Shown one piece after another: positions 1,402 to 28,346 of a DNA stretch of 64,000 nucleotides (the stretch's first letter is position 1; every line of letters starts with the position of its first letter). The stretch is from a virus: positions 124,001-188,000 of the IMG/VR virus record IMGVR_UViG_3300036766_000194, one strand, 5' to 3'. Below the pieces are notes generated by a model. That model had not been told where the DNA came from and did not search any database. It saw only the letters and a list, made by a program, of their open reading frames with translations. Position numbers and translations under genes: made by a program.

Positions 1402-1431
1402 TTAACCTTTTTCAGAAAACTACAGTATTAT
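1402..1431 (+). promoter_or_regulatory. Promoter of tRNA array 1
   Basis: TTAACC (1402-1407), 18 bases, TATTAT (1426-1431). This is the best + strand copy of the promoter motif repeated through the window. Expected initiation is near 1438, which is the A of the leader ORF start codon. Confidence 0.75.
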
Positions 1432-1437
1432 ATTAAC

Positions 1438-1521
1438 ATGAGACACATACTCTTATCATCGTATCTATCATCCAGTAGTTTGCTTACTGGATCCGAGCCG
1501 ATGAGAGGGTCTGTGGAATAA
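1438..1521 (+). CDS. Leader peptide of tRNA array 1 (attenuator peptide)
   Basis: A 27-codon ORF starting at the predicted transcription start, so probably leaderless; no Shine-Dalgarno sequence is visible. Residues 4-16 read ILLSSYLSSSSLL. The codons are Ile ATA; Leu CTC, TTA, CTA, TTG, CTT; Ser TCA, TCG, TCA, TCC, AGT, AGT; and Tyr TAT, so thirteen consecutive codons are all decoded by tRNAs of the downstream array. Only Leu(CAG) of the array is not sampled. By analogy with trp and his leader peptides (known), ribosome stalling here should report low charged tRNA (inferred). The stop codon lies between the antiterminator arms. Confidence 0.75.
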   Translation: MRHILLSSYLSSSSLLTGSEPMRGSVE

Positions 1522-1546
1522 AGACAGACACTTAGAAGTAGAATCG

Positions 1547-1585
1547 GCCTCGGACCAAAGTACACGGTCCGAGGCTTTTGTTTTA
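1547..1585 (+). terminator. Intrinsic terminator inside the attenuator
   Basis: A perfect 10-bp stem (GCCTCGGACC / GGTCCGAGGC) with a 9-base loop, followed at once by TTTTGTTTTA. It lies between the promoter and the tRNA array it would serve, so it is expected to be conditional. Confidence 0.85.
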
Positions 1586-1597
1586 GAAGTAAAGTTT

Positions 1598-1686
1598 GGA
1601 GCGGACGCCCTGTTGGAATGGGCACCTGTCTGTAAAACAGGAGTCCCCTGCGGATATTGTGGGTTCGAATCCCTCTCGCTCCACCA
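1598..1686 (+). tRNA. tRNA-Tyr (anticodon GTA)
   Basis: Cloverleaf with acceptor GGAGCGG/TCGCTCC, anticodon stem CCTGT/ACAGG, loop CTGTAAA, long variable arm as in bacterial tRNA-Tyr, A73 and an encoded CCA. First gene of array 1. Confidence 0.93.
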
Positions 1687-1698
1687 AGTTTTATCTTT

Positions 1699-1784
1699 GC
1701 GCGAGTGGTGGAATGGCAGACACGCTGTCCTCAGAAGGCAGTCCTCGAAAGAGGGTGGAGGTTCAAATCCTCTCTTGCGCACCA
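1699..1784 (+). tRNA. tRNA-Leu (anticodon CAG)
   Basis: Acceptor GCGCGAG/CTTGCGC, anticodon stem CTGTC/GGCAG with loop CTCAGAA, long variable arm, encoded CCA. This is the only array-1 tRNA whose codon (CTG) is absent from the leader peptide. Confidence 0.92.
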
Positions 1785-1786
1785 AT

Positions 1787-1873
1787 GCCGAAGTGGCGGA
1801 ACTAGGCAGACGCGGCTGGCTCAAACCCAGTTGGTTAACAGCCATGGGGGTTCAAATCCCTCCTTCGGTACCA
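1787..1873 (+). tRNA. tRNA-Leu (anticodon CAA)
   Basis: Acceptor GCCGAAG/CTTCGGT with a G1-U72 wobble, anticodon loop CTCAAAC, long variable arm with paired stem, encoded CCA. Reads TTG. Confidence 0.9.
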
Positions 1874-1942
1874 AGTTTTTGGAGTTTACTGTGGTTTAGT
1901 TTAGAAAGGAGTAAACTAGGATAAACTCAGTAACTAGTTTGT

Positions 1943-2029
1943 GCGGGTATGGCGGAACTGGCAGACGCGTTGGACTTAAAATCCAATGGCCGCAAGGCCG
2001 TGGGGGATCGTGGCCCTCTACCCGTACCA
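1943..2029 (+). tRNA. tRNA-Leu (anticodon TAA), unusual T-loop
   Basis: Acceptor GCGGGTA/TACCCGT, anticodon stem TTGGA/TCCAA, loop CTTAAAA, long variable arm, encoded CCA. The T-loop reads ATCGTGG, with A54 and U58 instead of the universal U54 and A58. Confidence 0.88.
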
Positions 2030-2042
2030 AAGTTTTGATTTT

Positions 2043-2126
2043 CGGCGAGTGGCGTAATGGCAGCCGCGCTAGACTTAGAATCTAGTCCTTAAATGGGTGT
2101 GGGTTCGAATCCCTCCTCGCCGACCA
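2043..2126 (+). tRNA. tRNA-Leu (anticodon TAG)
   Basis: Perfect acceptor CGGCGAG/CTCGCCG, anticodon stem CTAGA/TCTAG with loop CTTAGAA, long variable arm, normal T-loop TTCGAAT, encoded CCA. Confidence 0.92.
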
Positions 2127-2132
2127 AAATTT

Positions 2133-2218
2133 GCACCTGTGCCGGAACTGGCATACGGGCACGGCTGAGAACCGTGGAGCGAAAGCTCTTGTGAGTTCGA
2201 CTCTCACCAGGTGCACCA
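2133..2218 (+). tRNA. tRNA-Leu (anticodon GAG)
   Basis: Acceptor GCACCTG/CAGGTGC, anticodon stem CACGG/CCGTG with loop CTGAGAA, long variable arm, encoded CCA. Reads CTC and CTT, completing a full Leu isoacceptor set. Confidence 0.92.
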
Positions 2219-2224
2219 ATATTC

Positions 2225-2281
2225 GCTAAGGATGGCGGAACTAGGCAGACGCATCCTTTAGGAACCCCAGTAGCGAGTCCG
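2225..2281 (+). pseudogene. 5' remnant of a sixth tRNA-Leu
   Basis: Starts with an acceptor-like GCTAAGG, a normal type II D-arm and a degenerate anticodon region containing TTTAGGA (TAG-like). It continues into the variable arm (AGTAGCGA) and then stops: no T-arm and no 3' acceptor strand follow. This looks like a truncated tRNA-Leu(TAG) duplicate. About 55 bases of A/T-rich sequence separate it from the next tRNA. Confidence 0.6.
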
Positions 2282-2337
2282 GTTTTGATATGTGATATTA
2301 TATAGAGGAAGGGGTTTCTATATAAGATAACCTATAT

Positions 2338-2427
2338 GGGAAGTTGGCAGAGTGGCCTATTGTGCTGGTTTGCTAAACCAGAATGCTCGAAAGGGCATCA
2401 GAGGTTCGAATCCTCTACTTCCCGCCA
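2338..2427 (+). tRNA. tRNA-Ser (anticodon GCT)
   Basis: Acceptor GGGAAGT/ACTTCCC, anticodon stem CTGGT/ACCAG with loop TTGCTAA, long variable arm, G73, encoded CCA. Reads AGC and AGT. Confidence 0.93.
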
Positions 2428-2431
2428 ATTT

Positions 2432-2521
2432 GGACGGTTGACAGAGTGGCCTATTGTGCACGCCTGGAAAGCGTGATTACCCGAAAGGGTAACGAGTGTT
2501 CGAATCACTCACCGTCCGCCA
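2432..2521 (+). tRNA. tRNA-Ser (anticodon GGA)
   Basis: Acceptor GGACGGT/ACCGTCC, anticodon stem CACGC/GCGTG with loop CTGGAAA, long variable arm, G73, encoded CCA. Reads TCC and TCT. Confidence 0.93.
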
Positions 2522-2525
2522 GATT

Positions 2526-2675
2526 ATGAATCTAAAATGCAAGTGTGGTGAGGACAAATGGGAAGTTGTACAGAAAGCTGATGGTAAGAAGACTCTTACC
2601 TGCTTGTCTTGTGGTGCTGAGATTTTAATTTTCTTACTACTTCATCCTGAAAATAAGGATGTGAAGTGGGAGTAA
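2526..2675 (+). CDS. 49-residue zinc-ribbon protein inside tRNA array 1
   Basis: ATG at 2526, five bases after the CCA of tRNA-Ser(GGA). The protein starts MNLKCKCG and has a second Cys pair, CLSCG, at about residues 26-30, then a hydrophobic stretch (ILIFLLL). The four cysteines fit a small zinc ribbon. There is no clear ribosome site, so translation may depend on tRNA processing freeing the 5' end (inference). Function unknown. Confidence 0.6.
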   Translation: MNLKCKCGEDKWEVVQKADGKKTLTCLSCGAEILIFLLLHPENKDVKWE

Positions 2676-2682
2676 AGAGTTT

Positions 2683-2769
2683 GGAAGATGTGAGCGATGG
2701 CCGCTCGCTCGTCTCGAAAACGAGTCAAGCCGAAAGGCATAGGGTGTTCGATTCACCCATCTTCCGCCA
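2683..2769 (+). tRNA. tRNA-Ser (anticodon CGA)
   Basis: Acceptor GGAAGAT/ATCTTCC, anticodon stem CTCGT/ACGAG with loop CTCGAAA, long variable arm, G73, encoded CCA. Reads TCG. Confidence 0.93.
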
Positions 2770-2772
2770 AAT

Positions 2773-2855
2773 GGAAAGATCTGCCGACGGCAAAGGCAAT
2801 CTGTCTTGAAAACAGACGCACCGAAAGGTGCACGGTTCGACTCCGTATCTTTCCT
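2773..2855 (+). tRNA. tRNA-Ser (anticodon TGA), CCA not encoded
   Basis: Acceptor GGAAAGA/TCTTTCC, anticodon stem TCTGT/ACAGA with loop CTTGAAA, long variable arm. The 3' end continues TCAT, so the CCA must be added after transcription, and the discriminator is T rather than the usual Ser G73. Reads TCA. Confidence 0.88.
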
Positions 2856-2873: not shown

Positions 2874-3194
2874 ATGGGTATAAAGTTCACAGTGTACAAA
2901 ACAACGAATCTTAAGAATGCCAAATTCTACCTTGGCTCTCATAAGACCGTTAATCCGAACGATAGCTATCTGGGTTCGGGTACACTTATCCTACGGGCGA
3001 TAGCCAAGTATGGAGAAGAGAACTTCAAAAAAGAAGTTCTCTTCGTATACGATAACGCTGAGAAAGCATTTAAGAAAGAATTTGAATTGGTAGAGGCTGA
3101 GAAGCAGGATAAACTCTGCTATAATTTAAGGCAGGGCGGCAGCGGTGGATTTGGGTCTTTGGTCGAAAGGACAATTTATTCTTATCTTGCGTGA
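2874..3194 (+). CDS. GIY-YIG homing endonuclease
   Basis: A 106-residue protein. The N-terminal half fits the compact GIY-YIG nuclease fold of phage Seg-type enzymes: VYKTTNLKNAKFYLGSHK (GIY/YIG-like strands), then the conserved block LGSGTLILRAIAKYGEENFKKEVL and a Glu-rich helix ending in the Asn-containing CYNLRQGGSGG. The sequence stops soon after the nuclease core, so the usual C-terminal DNA-binding modules are missing. It lies between tRNA-Ser(TGA) and the UAU tRNA, a typical homing location. It may have carried the last tRNA with it (inference). Confidence 0.8.
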   Translation: MGIKFTVYKTTNLKNAKFYLGSHKTVNPNDSYLGSGTLILRAIAKYGEENFKKEVLFVYDNAEKAFKKEFELVEAEKQDKLCYNLRQGGSGGFGSLVERTIYSYLA

Positions 3195-3233: not shown

Positions 3234-3322
3234 GCTGATGACCGTTGGTACGGGGAACCGCCTTATAAGCGGTCGCTCTAGATTAGAGCTTCTTTAGGGT
3301 TCGATTCCCTACGTCAGCACCA
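3234..3322 (+). tRNA. Class II tRNA with UAU (Ile-type) anticodon
   Basis: Acceptor GCTGATG/CGTCAGC, perfect anticodon stem ACCGC/GCGGT, loop CTTATAA (anticodon TAT), T-arm TAGGG/CCCTA with loop TTCGATT, A73 and CCA. The variable region holds a hairpin GCTCTA/TAGAGC, so this is a class II tRNA, although normal tRNA-Ile is class I. The D-arm is cramped and position 8 is A. It reads ATA, the first array-specific codon of the leader peptide. Amino acid identity is uncertain (Ile, Leu or Tyr charging are all conceivable). Confidence 0.75.
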
Positions 3323-3398: not shown

Positions 3399-5483
3399 AT
3401 GAAAGTATTCGTATTGATGGAAAATAGTAACCCTGTAGGGGTTACAAAATCCAAAACAAAGGCTGAGAAGTGGCTCTTCTCTCCCGACAACGACTACCTT
3501 ACGTTTGAAATGGAAGACGTCCTCAAGTCAGAAGAGAAAGCTCCCGCTGCTCCTGTTGAAGAAAAAGATAAGACTCCTCAAGAACATCTCCTCCGTAATG
3601 TGGATAAATTAGAAACTCAAATAGAACAAGCCGATAAGAAACTTAAAGAAAATATAGAGCAGTTGAAGAAGTTTAAGCGTAAGTCTAGCGTCCCTAAAGA
3701 AGCAGCTGTAAACTACAAAGAAATGTTTAAAAAATTTCTTGAAGCTGTTCCTAAATTTGAAGGGGCTGTAAATCAAGAAATTTCCTGGGCTAAGGAACAT
3801 TTAGAAAAGAAAGATCGTATCGTTTGGTATCTCCGTTGGATTCGTCTCGGTATGATACAAGATGCGGAAAACACCGAACAATTGCCCAAAGGAACCTTAC
3901 ATAAAGAGCTAGATGCTCTAAAAATTAAAAGTGGGAAGCAATACACCCCAGCGGACATCATTCGTGATGACTGGCGTTTTAAACGGGATCTTCAACACTA
4001 CATGAGCGTGGCCGATCAAGAAATGCAGTCTAAGCAATTTGGATATGAAACTCCTTTCGAACTCATGACTGAATTAAAGACCATTGACGATAAATTTAAG
4101 GAAAAGGTGCAGGAAGACGCTCGTCTATTAGAACCCCAAGAAGATGACAAAGTATTAATCAAGTTTCCTGATGGTTGGGCCTGGTGGGCATTGAACCGTG
4201 GAGTTTGCTCTGAGGAAGCTGAAGCAATGGGACATTGCGGTAATCAAGGAATGGTCACAGGAAATCAAATCATAAGTTTACGTGAGCCTAAAAGCAAAGG
4301 TGGTAAGAATTATTGGGTACCTCACCTGACTTTTATTCTTGACAAGGATACCGGGATGTTGGGAGAGATGAAGGGGCGGGGTAACGAGAAGCCAGCTGCT
4401 CGTTATCATCCATACATCATAGAATTGTTGGAAGGTGATCGTATCAAAGGAATTCGCGGTGGCGGGTATCAACCTTCCCACAATTTTGCTATGAATGACC
4501 TGTCGGAAGAAGATCGCACCAAGTTGGAAGAAGATAAGCCAGAACTTATGACTTTGCGTCGTTATATGGCGAAGAATAAAAACAAAATTGATGACTATGT
4601 TATTGAGAAGACTCAGGTTCTTCTAGGGCTAAATTCCGAAACATATGATGAACATAACAAGGGATGGACTATTGAAACTTGGAAAAGTGTAGAAAATTTT
4701 GTAGAAGAAAGGGGTAACAGGCAAGCTCGATGGCTTATGAAGTATGAAACTGGGAGAGAGACTCTAGATGTAGATTATGTAAATGAAAATGACGCCTTAG
4801 ATTTCATTGATCGTCTTCCCGATGCTGTGGTGAAGAATATTGGTTTATCATTAGAACAGAACCGTGCCGATGAATTAAAAAAATTCAGAGAAAACTATCG
4901 CCCGTCTGCGCCACATCCCCGGCGTCGGCAGTATACCTGGGAACCAGACAATAGTGGAGATATAAAAGACTTCATAAAATATCTAGAAGAAGAAGGAAAA
5001 AATTCAGAGGTAATGGATAACTTACGTACCGCTTATCGTTATGGGGTAGAAAGCGGAACCCTAAGTCGTATGTCTGAGGTTCTAACCAGAGCCGTGGAAG
5101 AAGCCACAGACAGTTTCGAACGTATTAAGATAGTGTATGAAGGAAACAATGTTTACTATGGCAAAATCTTCGCAGTTCTCAAATTGGTTGACGCTGTTGA
5201 CATAGCTATGGAATGTGAAGACGAGGGAAGCTGTACTTCTGATCCTACCGAAACTCTTGAGACCCTAAAAGTAGAGGCAAGTGAACAAGACGATTACTAC
5301 GATTTTGATGAAAAATATGCCATAAAGCACCTAATAGAAGTGTACGGCGAAGCTCCCGAAGTACCCGAAAAGACTAAAAAGCCAGTAGAGAATAAGAGTA
5401 GGAAGAAAAAGAAGAAACTCAAGTCTAGCTTTCTTTTAGAGGGAGATCAAATTGTCCGCCACACTACCAATACTGACACATAG
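3399..5483 (+). CDS. 694-residue protein with a PcfJ-like motif
   Basis: The N-terminus is followed by a charged coiled-coil region (about residues 60-130) and a long helical domain. At about residues 270-335 a compact conserved-looking block reads MGHCGN, ISLREP, PHLTF and GEMKGRGNEKP. This resembles the MxHC...ISLR...G..N..P pattern of PcfJ-type proteins known from phages and conjugative elements, whose biochemical role is unclear. The C-terminus is acidic and then strongly basic (KSRKKKKKLK). The 3' end overlaps the next gene by 32 bases. Confidence 0.6.
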   Translation: MKVFVLMENSNPVGVTKSKTKAEKWLFSPDNDYLTFEMEDVLKSEEKAPAAPVEEKDKTPQEHLLRNVDKLETQIEQADKKLKENIEQLKKFKRKSSVPKEAAVNYKEMFKKFLEAVPKFEGAVNQEISWAKEHLEKKDRIVWYLRWIRLGMIQDAENTEQLPKGTLHKELDALKIKSGKQYTPADIIRDDWRFKRDLQHYMSVADQEMQSKQFGYETPFELMTELKTIDDKFKEKVQEDARLLEPQEDDKVLIKFPDGWAWWALNRGVCSEEAEAMGHCGNQGMVTGNQIISLREPKSKGGKNYWVPHLTFILDKDTGMLGEMKGRGNEKPAARYHPYIIELLEGDRIKGIRGGGYQPSHNFAMNDLSEEDRTKLEEDKPELMTLRRYMAKNKNKIDDYVIEKTQVLLGLNSETYDEHNKGWTIETWKSVENFVEERGNRQARWLMKYETGRETLDVDYVNENDALDFIDRLPDAVVKNIGLSLEQNRADELKKFRENYRPSAPHPRRRQYTWEPDNSGDIKDFIKYLEEEGKNSEVMDNLRTAYRYGVESGTLSRMSEVLTRAVEEATDSFERIKIVYEGNNVYYGKIFAVLKLVDAVDIAMECEDEGSCTSDPTETLETLKVEASEQDDYYDFDEKYAIKHLIEVYGEAPEVPEKTKKPVENKSRKKKKKLKSSFLLEGDQIVRHTTNTDT

Positions 5484-22346: not shown

Positions 22347-22422
22347 TGGTAGGACCACAAGGATTCGAACCCTGGTATCGGAGGTAGAAGCTCCGCGCTC
22401 TGTCCGATTGAGCTATGGTCCC
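22347..22422 (-). tRNA. tRNA-Arg (anticodon TCT)
   Basis: Acceptor GGGACCA/TGGTCCT, anticodon stem CGGAG/CTCCG, loop CTTCTAC, normal T-loop, encoded CCA. Last tRNA of array 2. Reads AGA, present in the array-2 leader. Confidence 0.93.
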
Positions 22423-22426
22423 ACTT

Positions 22427-22502
22427 TGGAGGCCGGAGCGGGGTACGATCCCGCACACTTGGTTTAGGAAACCAGCGCACTGTCCATTTGTGCTATCCAG
22501 CC
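22427..22502 (-). tRNA. tRNA-Arg (anticodon CCT), unusual T-loop
   Basis: Acceptor GGCTGGA/TCCGGCC, anticodon loop TTCCTAA, T-stem GCGGG/CCCGC with loop ATCGTAC (A54, U58). Encoded CCA after T73. The only array-2 anticodon not sampled by the leader. Confidence 0.88.
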
Positions 22503-22507
22503 AAACT

Positions 22508-22582
22508 TGGTAGTCCCCACAGGACTCGAACCTGCAAAACGATGTTCGTAGCATCGTGTGATATCCATTTCACCAAGGGACC
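22508..22582 (-). tRNA. tRNA-Arg (anticodon ACG), copy 1
   Basis: Anticodon stem CGATG/CATCG with loop CTACGAA, normal T-arm, encoded CCA. Reads CGN codons if A34 is converted to inosine. Confidence 0.91.
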
Positions 22583-22585
22583 ACA

Positions 22586-22661
22586 TGGTATTCCCGGAGA
22601 GATTCGAACTCTCGTATCATCCTTCGGAGGAATGCGCCTGAGTCCACTAGGCTACGGGAAT
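22586..22661 (-). tRNA. tRNA-Arg (anticodon CCG)
   Basis: Acceptor ATTCCCG/CGGGAAT, anticodon loop CTCCGAA, normal T-arm, encoded CCA. Reads CGG. Confidence 0.91.
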
Positions 22662-22676
22662 AAACTCTATTAAACG

Positions 22677-22729
22677 CCGGATAGACTACAAAATTCTTCC
22701 GAAATCGTCTATCCGGTCACTATGACCGG
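22677..22729 (-). other. Alternative hairpins between tRNA genes
   Basis: CCGGATAGAC/GTCTATCCGG (22677-22686, 22707-22716) overlaps a second hairpin CCGGTCA-CTA-TGACCGG (22713-22729). The two stems share four bases and compete. They may guide processing or internal termination within the array. Confidence 0.5.
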
Positions 22730-22737
22730 GTATCTGG

Positions 22738-22812
22738 TGGATCCCAGAACTGGATTCGAACCAGTATGAATTCGTTCAGAGCGAATTAGGCTACCTATTG
22801 CCTCATCTGGGA
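22738..22812 (-). tRNA. tRNA-Gln (anticodon CTG), CCACCA end
   Basis: Perfect acceptor TCCCAGA/TCTGGGA, anticodon stem ATTCG/CGAAT with loop CTCTGAA. The discriminator is T, followed by CCA and immediately a second CCA. Confidence 0.88.
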
Positions 22813-22820
22813 ATTGAAAC

Positions 22821-22958
22821 TCATGTCGTACAAGATGAAAAGCGGTAATGATAAGGTTCACCGCCGTCATCATTACGGAGAGCTTCTGTGACCTTTGGCA
22901 ATGCGCATTCACACTGGTCATGCTCTTCCTGCGGACACCCGCCGTTTAAACGAACCAT
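22821..22958 (-). CDS. 45-residue Cys-containing protein inside array 2
   Basis: ATG after AAAGGAGTAATGAT, a strong ribosome site, so it is very likely translated although embedded between tRNA-Asn and tRNA-Gln. Sequence MVRLNGGCPQEEHDQCECAL... with clustered cysteines. Function unknown. Confidence 0.6.
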   Translation of the reverse strand: MVRLNGGCPQEEHDQCECALPKVTEALRNDDGGEPYHYRFSSCTT

Positions 22959-22979
22959 ATCATTACTCCTTTCTAAAAT

Positions 22980-23054
22980 TGGCTCTCCGAGTAGGACTTG
23001 AACCTACAACCTTTCGGTTAACAGCCGACTGCTCCGCCATTGAGCTACCGGAGA
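22980..23054 (-). tRNA. tRNA-Asn (anticodon GTT), copy 1
   Basis: Acceptor TCTCCGG/TCGGAGA, anticodon loop CTGTTAA, G73, encoded CCA. Confidence 0.9.
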
Positions 23055-23060
23055 ATTGAT

Positions 23061-23090
23061 AGGAGATGATAGTCGCGACTATCATCTCCT
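23061..23090. repeat. Perfect 30-bp palindrome
   Basis: AGGAGATGATAGTCG followed directly by its exact reverse complement, no loop. It lies six bases from tRNA-Asn in the array. It could be a dimeric protein site or a cruciform/RNA hairpin. Confidence 0.85.
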
Positions 23091-23096
23091 TCTTAA

Positions 23097-23171
23097 CTAG
23101 TCGGCCAATTCTTGAATTTTGGCATTTCCAGCTCTGCCAATGGCGGCTGGCGTCTTTCCGTTAAACGACGA
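23097..23171 (-). pseudogene. Ankyrin-like fragment
   Basis: A 24-codon frame reads FNGKTPAAIGRAGNAKIQEL, like part of an ankyrin repeat (G-x-T-P-x-x-x-A...G...I...L). No start codon. Probably a gene remnant between the two tRNA-Asn genes. Confidence 0.3.
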
Positions 23172-23176
23172 CTAAA

Positions 23177-23252
23177 TGGCTGGGGCGGGAGGACTCGAAC
23201 CTCCAAGTACCTGAGTAACAGTCAGGCGCTGTACCGATTGAGCCACACCCCA
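23177..23252 (-). tRNA. tRNA-Asn (anticodon GTT), copy 2
   Basis: Acceptor TGGGGTG/CGCCCCA, anticodon stem CCTGA/TCAGG with loop CTGTTAC, G73, encoded CCA. It differs considerably from copy 1, so not a recent duplicate. Confidence 0.92.
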
Positions 23253-23270
23253 ATTGAACTTCTACAACTC

Positions 23271-23346
23271 TGGTGGAGCAGATGGGATTTGAACCCACAT
23301 CCTTCGCATTGCAAGTGCGCTGCGCCGCCAATTGCGCCACTGCCCC
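23271..23346 (-). tRNA. tRNA-Ala (anticodon TGC)
   Basis: Acceptor GGGGCAG/CTGCTCC, anticodon loop CTTGCAA, normal T-arm, A73, encoded CCA. Confidence 0.91.
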
Positions 23347-23355
23347 AAAGTTAAG

Positions 23356-23429
23356 TGGTAGGGCTAGGGAGAATCGAACTCCCGTCTACTGATTAAGAGT
23401 CAGCAGCTTTACCATTAAGCTATAGCCCT
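23356..23429 (-). tRNA. tRNA-Lys (anticodon CTT)
   Basis: Acceptor AGGGCTA/TAGCCCT, anticodon loop CTCTTAA, normal T-arm, encoded CCA. Reads AAG. Confidence 0.92.
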
Positions 23430-23461
23430 AAAATTGCCCATATTTTTATCCCACGTCGGCT

Positions 23462-23575
23462 TTACGTTACCTTACGATAACGAGCGTGTGATGCCTTAGA
23501 CTTACGTCCGTAACAGGCGGCATCCACCCGGCTTATTTGCGTGAACGGAGGCAAGCTACCCCCGTCACGCTTCAT
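23462..23575 (-). CDS. 37-residue basic ORF inside array 2
   Basis: Opens MKRDGGSLPPFTQISRV and ends with a Lys/Arg/His-rich tail. No ribosome site; the ATG follows the CCA of tRNA-Arg(ACG) copy 2 by only four bases. Translation is doubtful. Confidence 0.3.
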   Translation of the reverse strand: MKRDGGSLPPFTQISRVDAACYGRKSKASHARYRKVT

Positions 23576-23579
23576 AAAA

Positions 23580-23655
23580 TGGTATCCCCGGCAGGATTTG
23601 AACCTGCGTATCTGGTTTCGTAGACCAGTACCTGAGTCCACTAGGCTACGGGGAC
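23580..23655 (-). tRNA. tRNA-Arg (anticodon ACG), copy 2
   Basis: Acceptor GTCCCCG/CGGGGAT, anticodon stem CTGGT/ACCAG with loop CTACGAA, normal T-arm, encoded CCA. Confidence 0.91.
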
Positions 23656-23666
23656 AAAGTAACTTC

Positions 23667-23742
23667 TGGTGGGTCCGGAGGGTTATGATCCCCCATAACG
23701 CTGTTTAAAAGACAGCTGCTTTGCCAGTTAAGCTACGAACCC
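23667..23742 (-). tRNA. tRNA-Lys (anticodon TTT), unusual T-loop
   Basis: Acceptor GGGTTCG/CGGACCC, anticodon stem GCTGT/ACAGC with loop CTTTTAA, encoded CCA. The T-loop is ATCATAA (A54, U58). Confidence 0.88.
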
Positions 23743-23752
23743 ATTTAAAACT

Positions 23753-23829
23753 TGGGGTGTAGGACGGGTCTCGAACCCGCTTTAACCGGATTCACAGTCC
23801 GGCGCGTCACCTGTTTCGCCTCCTACACC
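23753..23829 (-). tRNA. tRNA-His (anticodon GTG)
   Basis: Acceptor GTGTAGG/CCTACAC with an encoded G-1 facing C73, the His identity pair, anticodon loop CTGTGAA and encoded CCA. A small upstream ORF reads into its 5' half. Confidence 0.92.
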
Positions 23830-23898
23830 ATCGTTTAGTGCTTCCTTGTAAAAGGCAGTTTCAGTCCATTTCTTTTTCAAATGGGCATGAACAGCCAT
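23782..23898 (-). CDS. 38-residue ORF overlapping tRNA-His
   Basis: ATG nine bases after AGGAG. Opens MAVHAHLKKKWTETAFYKEA and then runs 48 bases into the tRNA-His gene before stopping. Either a small gene truncated by the tRNA or a true overlap; translation would conflict with tRNA folding. Confidence 0.4.
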   Translation of the reverse strand: MAVHAHLKKKWTETAFYKEALNDGVGGETGDAPDCESG

Positions 23899-23995
23899 AT
23901 CAGTTACTCCTAGTTTCCTAGCACACGGTCCACCATTGTTGTTTTCTCATGAACCCTTCAATGCCCTTTGTAAGAGATACTGAAAGTCACGAATG

Positions 23996-24067
23996 CAGGA
24001 TGGGAGGGACTCGAACCCCCGTAAACGGTTTTGGAGACCGTTGTCCTGGCCGCTGAACGACCATCCT
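23996..24067 (-). tRNA. tRNA-Trp (anticodon CCA)
   Basis: Acceptor AGGATGG/CCATCCT, anticodon stem ACGGT/ACCGT with loop CTCCAAA, G73. The 3' CCA is not encoded (GCA follows). First gene of array 2, directly after the alternative stems. Confidence 0.92.
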
Positions 24068-24073
24068 ATTAGT

Positions 24074-24194
24074 CTTACCGCCTGAGCGGTAAGCTGGGTT
24101 CTATTGATTTATGAGATTAAGTGAGTCGGTGGGAACTACGTTGACCCTCAACCTCGAAATTGCGAACCTCAGCTTACCGCCAGAAACACGAGCC
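24074..24194 (-). promoter_or_regulatory. Attenuator-like leader structure of tRNA array 2
   Basis: Transcribed order: arm A GCGGTAAGCTG (24180-24170), a hairpin GTTGA-GGG-TCAAC (24152-24140), arm B CAGCTTACCGC (24096-24086), arm C GCGGTAAG (24081-24074). B pairs perfectly with A (11 bp) or with C (8 bp, 4-base loop), never both. Arm A begins 15 bases after the leader stop codon, so a ribosome at the stop would crowd it. No U-run follows B:C, so termination would be Rho-type or the hairpin acts in processing. Confidence 0.65.
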
Positions 24195-24251
24195 TTACGC
24201 TCTATGCCACTGTCGCTTCGCTTCGCTCCGATTTCGTTTCGTTGAGTTCAT
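24195..24251 (-). CDS. Leader peptide of tRNA array 2
   Basis: An 18-codon ORF, MNSTKRNRSEAKRQWHRA, starting about 12 bases after the predicted transcription start. Thirteen of the 17 codons after Met are decoded by tRNAs of array 2: Asn AAC/AAT, Lys AAA/AAG, Arg CGA/CGG/AGA, Ala GCG, Gln CAG, Trp TGG, His CAT. The last eight codons are all of this kind. All seven amino acids of the array occur; only the Arg(CCT) codon AGG is missing. Same logic as the array-1 leader. Confidence 0.7.
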   Translation of the reverse strand: MNSTKRNRSEAKRQWHRA

Positions 24252-24269: not shown

Positions 24270-24299
24270 AGAATACGGGATATCTTTCAAAAAGGTTAA
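24270..24299 (-). promoter_or_regulatory. Promoter of tRNA array 2
   Basis: Minus strand TTAACC (24294-24299), 18 bases with a T-run, TATTCT (24270-24275). The same motif as the array-1 promoter. Confidence 0.65.
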
Positions 24300-24400
24300 T
24301 TAGCGATTTTCTTCTTAACAATGCCTTCTTTAACCCATTTCTTGTGACATTCGTTGATAACTTTAATTATCAGTTTTTCCATCTTCTTATTCTTCGTCAT
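24296..24400 (-). CDS. 34-residue basic protein
   Basis: MTKNKKMEKLIIKVINECHK..., Lys-rich, coupled by ATGA to the upstream frameshifted gene. Its end overlaps the -35 element of the array-2 promoter. Confidence 0.5.
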   Translation of the reverse strand: MTKNKKMEKLIIKVINECHKKWVKEGIVKKKIAN

Positions 24401-27368: not shown

Positions 27369-28346
27369 TTAACGAGCTAAAACTTCTTTGGTCATCTTAA
27401 TAATGAGGCTGTTGATTAGGTCGTAGTCCGGAGTCTTAGGAACAGCGAATTCTGTAAGGCTGTTGACTTTAGTGATCATTTCATCGGCGTAGGTTGTAAT
27501 TTGTTCATAAGACCAAGAACCTTGGCGGATAGCAAGTAACTCAGCAGCATCGGGGCGACGAACATGGCACTTGCCCTCAGTCAGGATTTCATACCCGGTC
27601 CTTAACAGCCGCACCAGATGAGCACCGTGTTTGGTGTCGTAACCAAACTTCACTTCCATCTCACGACGGTGGGGGTTACGTTCAGCCATCCAAGTGACAT
27701 ACTGATCCCGTTGCTTCTTTGCCATATCGTAAAGATGCTTTTGATACTGTTCACTGGGGCATACAATGCCTAATCCCTTTAGTTGCTCAAGATATTGGTC
27801 CTGCTGGACCATGCTTTGAAAAATAACAAATGGTTCCAACCGCTTGACCATGTTCTCACCAAAGCGCCAAGCCACCCAATCCCGACTGATCTTACCTTGA
27901 CGGACTAGGGGTTCAAGAACCTTTATCGCTTCAAATTCTTGAGCGATCCATTTTTGATGAGAACGGATTCTGTGAAGCTGTGCCTGGGCATACCCCACAT
28001 AGGTGCTAGCACACTTCTGAGAAAGAAAGCTGTCGCGATTGTAGCGTAGATGCCACATGATAGGATCTGCCAATATGACATCGCTATGGTTAACGAAGAG
28101 TAATTCCATAACGTTTGGATTGTTAGCAATAGCGAGGTTGGCAAACTTTCGCAGAGAATACAGAGTGGTGTCGCGTTCTTTAGACTGTTCAATCTGTTGA
28201 TCAAAAGCCTTTAAACCGAAGAAGTATTCTTCGGCGGGAACAAAGATTCCAGCGAAATCTTCATCAGACGTGGGAGTATTCATCCCGTAGGCGTGCGATC
28301 CTACACGGGTCTTGTAGATAACAGTATGTTCATTCCGTCCGTTCAT
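27369..28346 (-). CDS. YcgL-type nucleotidyltransferase
   Basis: A 325-residue protein. VGSHAYGMNTPTSDEDFAGIFV near the N-terminus gives the Pol beta-type signature GS...DxD (Ser17, Asp28, Asp30). The rest (LFVNHSDVILADP, then helical bundle) agrees with the COG3541-like predicted nucleotidyltransferases found in phages and bacteria. These are thought to modify RNA or protein with nucleotides; the substrate is unknown. With an RNA ligase in the same genome, an RNA repair role is possible (inference). Confidence 0.7.
   Translation of the reverse strand: MNGRNEHTVIYKTRVGSHAYGMNTPTSDEDFAGIFVPAEEYFFGLKAFDQQIEQSKERDTTLYSLRKFANLAIANNPNVMELLFVNHSDVILADPIMWHLRYNRDSFLSQKCASTYVGYAQAQLHRIRSHQKWIAQEFEAIKVLEPLVRQGKISRDWVAWRFGENMVKRLEPFVIFQSMVQQDQYLEQLKGLGIVCPSEQYQKHLYDMAKKQRDQYVTWMAERNPHRREMEVKFGYDTKHGAHLVRLLRTGYEILTEGKCHVRRPDAAELLAIRQGSWSYEQITTYADEMITKVNSLTEFAVPKTPDYDLINSLIIKMTKEVLAR

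Follow-up and report, generated by a model that had tools for sequence, protein, structure and literature searches.

The window analysed here, a stretch of 64,000 nucleotides, corresponds to positions 124001-188000 of a 299,875-bp IMG/VR virus record. Its terminase matches the one of Tunturi_5 (PP885688.1), a cultured Acidobacteriota phage of 309 kb, with about 50% identity when an intein-like insert is excluded; this in-frame insert of ~360 amino acids in the large subunit (51426-54422, minus strand) is probably an intein and is absent from Tunturi_5. On the plus strand lies an array of 11 tRNA genes (array 1), preceded in order by a promoter, a leader ORF and an intrinsic terminator. The array comprises tRNA-Tyr(GUA) (1598-1686), five tRNA-Leu with anticodons CAG (1699-1784), CAA (1787-1873), UAA (1943-2029), UAG (2043-2126) and GAG (2133-2218), four tRNA-Ser with anticodons GCU (2338-2427), GGA (2432-2521), CGA (2683-2769) and UGA (2773-2856), and, as final member, a tRNA(UAU) with a long variable arm (3234-3322). 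The initial annotation had confined the unit to 1402-2855, which was partly wrong, as the UAU tRNA lies outside that range. Interspersed in the array are a decayed tRNA-Leu fragment (2228-2290), a small zinc-ribbon-like ORF (2526-2675) and a GIY-YIG homing-type ORF (2874-3194), after which the UAU tRNA follows, and a spacer repeat, ggagtttactgtggtttagtttagaaaggagtaaact, is near-identical between array 1 (1877-1930) and array A of the same phage (locus L019, about 2868-2945). At 3399-5483 is encoded a 694-aa protein with a conserved GWAWW...AMGHCGN core and without Pfam match, which is present in many huge phages, sometimes in tandem copies.

The promoter of array 1 (TTAACC-N18-TATTAT; 1402-1431, plus strand) sits inside a 19-nt motif, ATCGCTAATTAACCTTTTT, which, allowing up to 3 mismatches, is confined in its own genome to the upstream regions of arrays 1, 2 and 3; searches for the motif elsewhere returned no confirmable related phage and no bacterial genome. 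Because 6 nt separate the end of the -10 element from the AUG of the leader ORF, the mRNA is probably leaderless, and transcription is predicted, from sequence alone, to start on or adjoining this AUG. The leader ORF (1438-1521, plus strand) has 27 codons, MRHILLSSYLSSSSLLTGSEPMRGSVE. Its codons 4-16 (1447-1485; ATA CTC TTA TCA TCG TAT CTA TCA TCC AGT AGT TTG CTT) are all read by array 1 tRNAs and sample 10 of the 11 anticodons, CAG being the sole miss. The initial annotation had described precisely this run of 13 consecutive cognate codons, including the ATA, and its claim held. The chance check that it had suggested showed that such a stretch occurs a single time across the six frames of the window, the runner-up among the 1,671 ORFs being a run of 8, and that none appears in 60 dinucleotide-shuffled windows, in which the longest run within ORFs was 11. 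When the upstream region of array 1 was itself shuffled, none of 1000 replicates reached the observed match.

Folding of positions 1438-1585, a further check that had been suggested, gave z = -5.5. A protector-type hairpin (1:2) pairs 1470-1477 with 1485-1492 and is extended to 1444-1515 in the MFE fold. Directly after the control codons lies segment 2 (1488-1503), the putative antiterminator, which is complementary to segment 3 (1542-1556), consisting of the terminator 5' arm and its flank. The intrinsic terminator with its T-rich tail (1546-1585, all on the plus strand) is formed by a hairpin at 1546-1576 followed by TTTGTTTT, with a free energy of -21.5 kcal/mol; the consensus terminator scanner missed it because its loop is 9 nt and the limit of the scanner is 8. 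The promoter, leader ORF, terminator and exclusive antiterminator proposed in the initial annotation all held, the antiterminator pairing of 1492-1502 with 1543-1554 being recovered as 1488-1503 with 1542-1556. Taken on its own, array 1 gave a modest result in the antiterminator test (p = 0.015) and a weak one in the switch test (p = 0.15). In the folding model without a ribosome, the terminator arm was 0.69 sequestered despite the protector-type hairpin, and thus the untranslated RNA would not be expected to terminate as in trp.

The same genome carries several tRNA arrays, with a matched leader that is strong at array 2 and weak at two small arrays (3 and B). Array 2 (22347-24067, minus strand) comprises Trp, His, Lys, Arg, Lys, Ala, Asn, Asn, Gln and four Arg tRNAs. 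It is preceded on the same strand by the shared promoter-region motif (24289-24307) and by a leader ORF (24195-24251; MNSTKRNRSEAKRQWHRA) sampling 10 of the 11 array 2 anticodons (shuffle p = 0.002). Competing stems follow at 24074-24180, where 24180-24170 pairs with 24096-24086 in alternative to a hairpin at 24093-24074; no clear T-run was seen there, and the terminator remains uncertain. The leader of array 3 (Gln, three Thr, Cys), MNTCRRTRTYQRTYTL, covers 5 of 5 anticodons, and that of array B (four Pro, Met) contains CCA, CCG and CCC, but neither match is significant alone (p = 0.16 and 0.46, respectively); the terminator of array 3 could not be resolved and array B has no convincing T-run terminator. 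No leader was found at array A (L019, G000:C1:6500-12500), whose tRNAs read mostly GNN codons, one being predicted to read UAA. Arrays for GNN codons recur in contigs G001, G003, G004, G022 and G023, which gives the impression of a codon table divided up among arrays. A lone UCA-anticodon tRNA of the same genome (G000:C1:239973-240046) is called tRNA-Sec by ARAGORN; it is only 74 nt long, so it is possibly a UGA suppressor.

Relatives were retrieved with the conserved core of the 694-aa protein as query (alignment A2), since a terminase-based search gave only three loci. Matching leaders precede three arrays in Tunturi_5, namely Leu/Cys/Tyr/Ser, Gln/Gly/Thr/Pro/His/Ala/Phe and one of 16 tRNAs. 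In the first of these a Cys tRNA has been added to the Leu/Tyr/Ser set, and Cys codons are present in the leader. Among related IMG/VR contigs, the anticodons covered by the leaders were 13/13 in G003, 11/11 in G004, 10/10 and 10/12 in G001, 6/6 twice in G017 (561 kb), 12/13 and 5/5 in G022, 9/10 in G023 and 6/7 in G020; further matched cases are G033, G027, LR745208 and Salicola phage SCTP-2. The leaders of Bacillus phage G and Agrobacterium phage Atu_ph07 cover 7/7 and 9/9 anticodons, respectively, a match reached by 0 of 500 shuffles for both. In six Microbacterium phages the order of leader codons is permuted and the codon set is kept, as in Zooman (TAT GAA CTA GAT TTC CAC CTG GAG CCT) and A3Wally (TAT GAA TTC GAT CTT CAC CTG GAG CCT). 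The peptide sequences are unrelated from array to array and from phage to phage. AUA codons occur in the leader wherever a UAU tRNA is present (3 phages), which suggests that these tRNAs are working AUA decoders, although the amino acid with which they are charged is unclear; the UAU tRNAs (window 3234-3322; L055 366-458; L056 2837-2930) have the length expected of type II tRNAs with a long variable arm. No match was found in T4, XacN1, Klebsiella phage IME260 or the unrelated contigs G008, G009 and G011, these negatives including a T5-like phage, nor was a leader found for most interspersed tRNAs of G015, G016, G030 and G037; Vibrio phage D479, with 24 anticodons in one cluster, was uninformative.

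The initial annotation had stated that its attenuator reading would be refuted if related phages kept the array without the ORF or the stems. Mostly the opposite was observed, with some arrays leaderless, one of them in the same genome, and the reading is strongly supported by the leaders of other arrays, in this genome and in unrelated phages, each of which fits the differing tRNA set of its own array. This specificity was quantified over the first 36 arrays: scoring each upstream region against its own array gave a summed score of 375, compared with 204.6 (SD 15.3) for permuted arrays, and none of 20,000 permutations reached the observed value. At 14 of these 36 arrays an upstream ORF was matched to its own array at shuffle p ≤ 0.002. 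The match also extends below the level of the amino acid. When, in 18 leader segments, amino acids were held fixed and synonymous codons were drawn at random, 139.6 (SD 4.2) anticodons were expected to be sampled and 159 were observed (p ≤ 5e-5). The codon choice of the leaders thus samples individual tRNAs more than amino-acid composition explains, with the caveat that the leaders were picked by codon match, which somewhat favors this result, and that the limits of the control segments were set by eye.

Analysis of the RNA structures across leaders revealed a T-tailed hairpin 13-42 nt after the stop codon in 23 leaders. The stretch of ORF that follows the control codons shows complementarity to the terminator 5' arm across these 23 leaders (Fisher combined p = 4e-12). 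When the ribosome footprint was masked in a folding model, sequestering of the 5' arm was high with the ribosome on the control codons and lower after its passage in 21 of 22 leaders, the modelled fall averaging 0.31 compared with 0.01 in shuffles (Wilcoxon p = 1e-6). Four related leaders show two-sided changes in both the antiterminator and the terminator helix (3 pairs each), and these helices collapse if slid by one column; the covariation evidence rests on these four sequences only. Little covariation emerged when five Microbacterium leaders were folded to a consensus, since their stems have shifted relative to one another, and some leaders elsewhere (G019, G023, LR745208) have no clear T-run terminator. 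The geometry of the leaders, as judged from sequence and model in the absence of expression data, is that of ribosome-mediated attenuation as modelled for amino-acid operons (PMC1183508).

The sequences themselves establish that codons and arrays match, that this match is replicated and co-varies with what the arrays contain, and that terminators and mutually exclusive pairings are present. On this basis, the reading that we favor, with a probability of roughly 0.86, is that array 1 is controlled by ribosome-mediated transcription attenuation and that the tRNAs under this control are also the ones sensed; translation of the leader, stalling, readthrough and purpose are all inferred, without support from expression, ribosome-profiling or RNA 3'-end measurements. 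In this mechanism, RNA polymerase would initiate at the promoter and a ribosome would translate the short leader, whose codon run is read by the array's own tRNAs, with about one codon per tRNA. Scarcity of any one charged tRNA would stall the ribosome within the control codons, so that the downstream segment pairs with the terminator 5' arm, formation of the terminator is prevented and transcription continues into the array. With all charged tRNAs plentiful, the ribosome would reach the stop codon and cover that segment, the terminator would form and the array would be off. Such an OR-type feedback loop would keep each tRNA group above a threshold, and could respond to host anticodon nucleases as well.

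The simplest function inferred for this loop would be tRNA homeostasis, group by group, in the course of infection. The loop might also sense tRNA-cutting defences, a possibility that is equally inferred and has no expression data behind it. Such sensing would fit the role proposed for phage tRNAs, which are regarded as countering anticodon nucleases and retron effectors by replacing tRNAs that the host loses (PMC10264068, PMC11555353), and also the RlaP-type RNA repair nucleotidyltransferase predicted in the window (27372-28346, minus strand; PF10127, E = 1.7e-26), which is possibly relevant to the repair of cut tRNAs. The sensing of anticodon-nuclease attack, as opposed to tRNA shortage in general, that was put forward in the initial annotation, and any response of termination to charging or tRNA level, remain inference. 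The sequences of many large phages with very different hosts suggest that the leader-array design recurs among them. A bolder reading, to which we would give slightly less than even odds, is that large phages of several bacterial phyla share a general principle of regulation: they would group their tRNA genes in modules, each with a leader reading every tRNA of the module, and would thereby monitor the pool one tRNA at a time, so that depletion of any member, including by host anticodon nucleases, would switch on the replacement module.

Other explanations were weighed against these data. The attenuator could be the same and its role be the sensing of amino acids (Leu/Ser/Tyr starvation), with an incidental per-tRNA match. 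The known trp, his and ilv leaders indeed operate by amino acid (PMC1183508), and the leader-array match lies mostly at that level. However, the leaders sample nearly all array anticodons, beyond what amino acids predict, AUA is included where the UAU tRNA is present (3 phages), as many as 15 unrelated anticodons are combined in one array, and amino acids are not what a tRNA array produces, so that this role appears unlikely. A post-transcriptional action, in which the position of the ribosome would affect how the tRNA precursor is processed or how stable it is, rather than termination, would account for arrays 2, B and several others that show alternative stems without a clear T-run; it is likewise improbable, given the canonical hairpin and T-run near the first tRNA in at least 20 leaders.

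Less probable still is that the leader ORF encodes a genuine small protein, or a peptide linked to phage tRNAs, with the codon match as a by-product. Annotations as hypothetical proteins do exist for some leaders (gp86 of phage G, gp308 of Tunturi_5 and AUZ95228 of Atu_ph07), but the peptides are unrelated, close relatives keep the tRNA set and permute the codon order, and the match is specific to the own array. Large arrays read a large share of all codons (p0 up to 0.4), by which low-complexity leaders covering many codons could match through chance or composition bias; dinucleotide shuffles, array permutations and the negatives in unrelated phages rule this out for at least 14 arrays, and it can be regarded as practically excluded. 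A T-box riboswitch, in which a stem I specifier loop and a T-box bulge bind the tRNA, was rejected as a candidate, no Rfam family other than tRNA being found in the window.

Attenuators of amino-acid operons (trp, his, leu, and the multi-amino-acid ilvGMEDA and thr) likewise have a short leader ORF, control codons, an exclusive antiterminator and an intrinsic terminator with the genes directly downstream. The phage units differ from them in that they regulate tRNAs, products that themselves decode the sensor, in that up to 15 tRNAs, picked per anticodon, are represented in one leader, and in that they are phage-borne, occur as several units per genome and are often predicted to be leaderless. 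The pheST (pheM) attenuator, in which leader codons control a tRNA synthetase, also governs a translation-supply gene, but it concerns one amino acid and a protein product and is bacterial. T-box riboswitches share with the phage leaders a control of termination responding to tRNA charging, a response that in the phages is inferred, but bind the tRNA directly and need no leader ORF. The studies on phage tRNAs as counter-defence (PMC10264068, PMC11555353) concern tRNA sequence or presence; neither leaders nor attenuation are mentioned in the parts of PMC10264068 examined, nor leaders in the Tunturi paper. No description of attenuation of phage tRNA genes was found in the open-access literature searched (open-licence papers only), and the initial annotation likewise knew of no described phage tRNA array so regulated. 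Attenuation itself is known; its use in phages for tRNA genes sensing their own products, with hosts in Acidobacteriota, Bacillus, Microbacterium, Agrobacterium and Salicola, appears to be new.

For decades it has been debated what purpose the tRNAs carried by phages serve. Should the leaders work as inferred, their codons would record which tRNA shortages phages expect and answer, tRNA modules would be expressed on demand and not constitutively, and codon compensation versus counter-defence would become directly testable by means of reporters in cultured phages such as phage G and the Microbacterium phages. Such leaders would also offer a programmable sensor for individual tRNA levels, extend textbook attenuation to tRNA genes and explain several hypothetical proteins. 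Gp86 of phage G (JN638751.1, 58381-58515) and AUZ95228 of Atu_ph07 (MF403008.1, 339118-339246) are better read as tRNA-array leader peptides, and gp308 of Tunturi_5 (PP885688.1, 251573-251722) as the leader of its third, 16-tRNA array.
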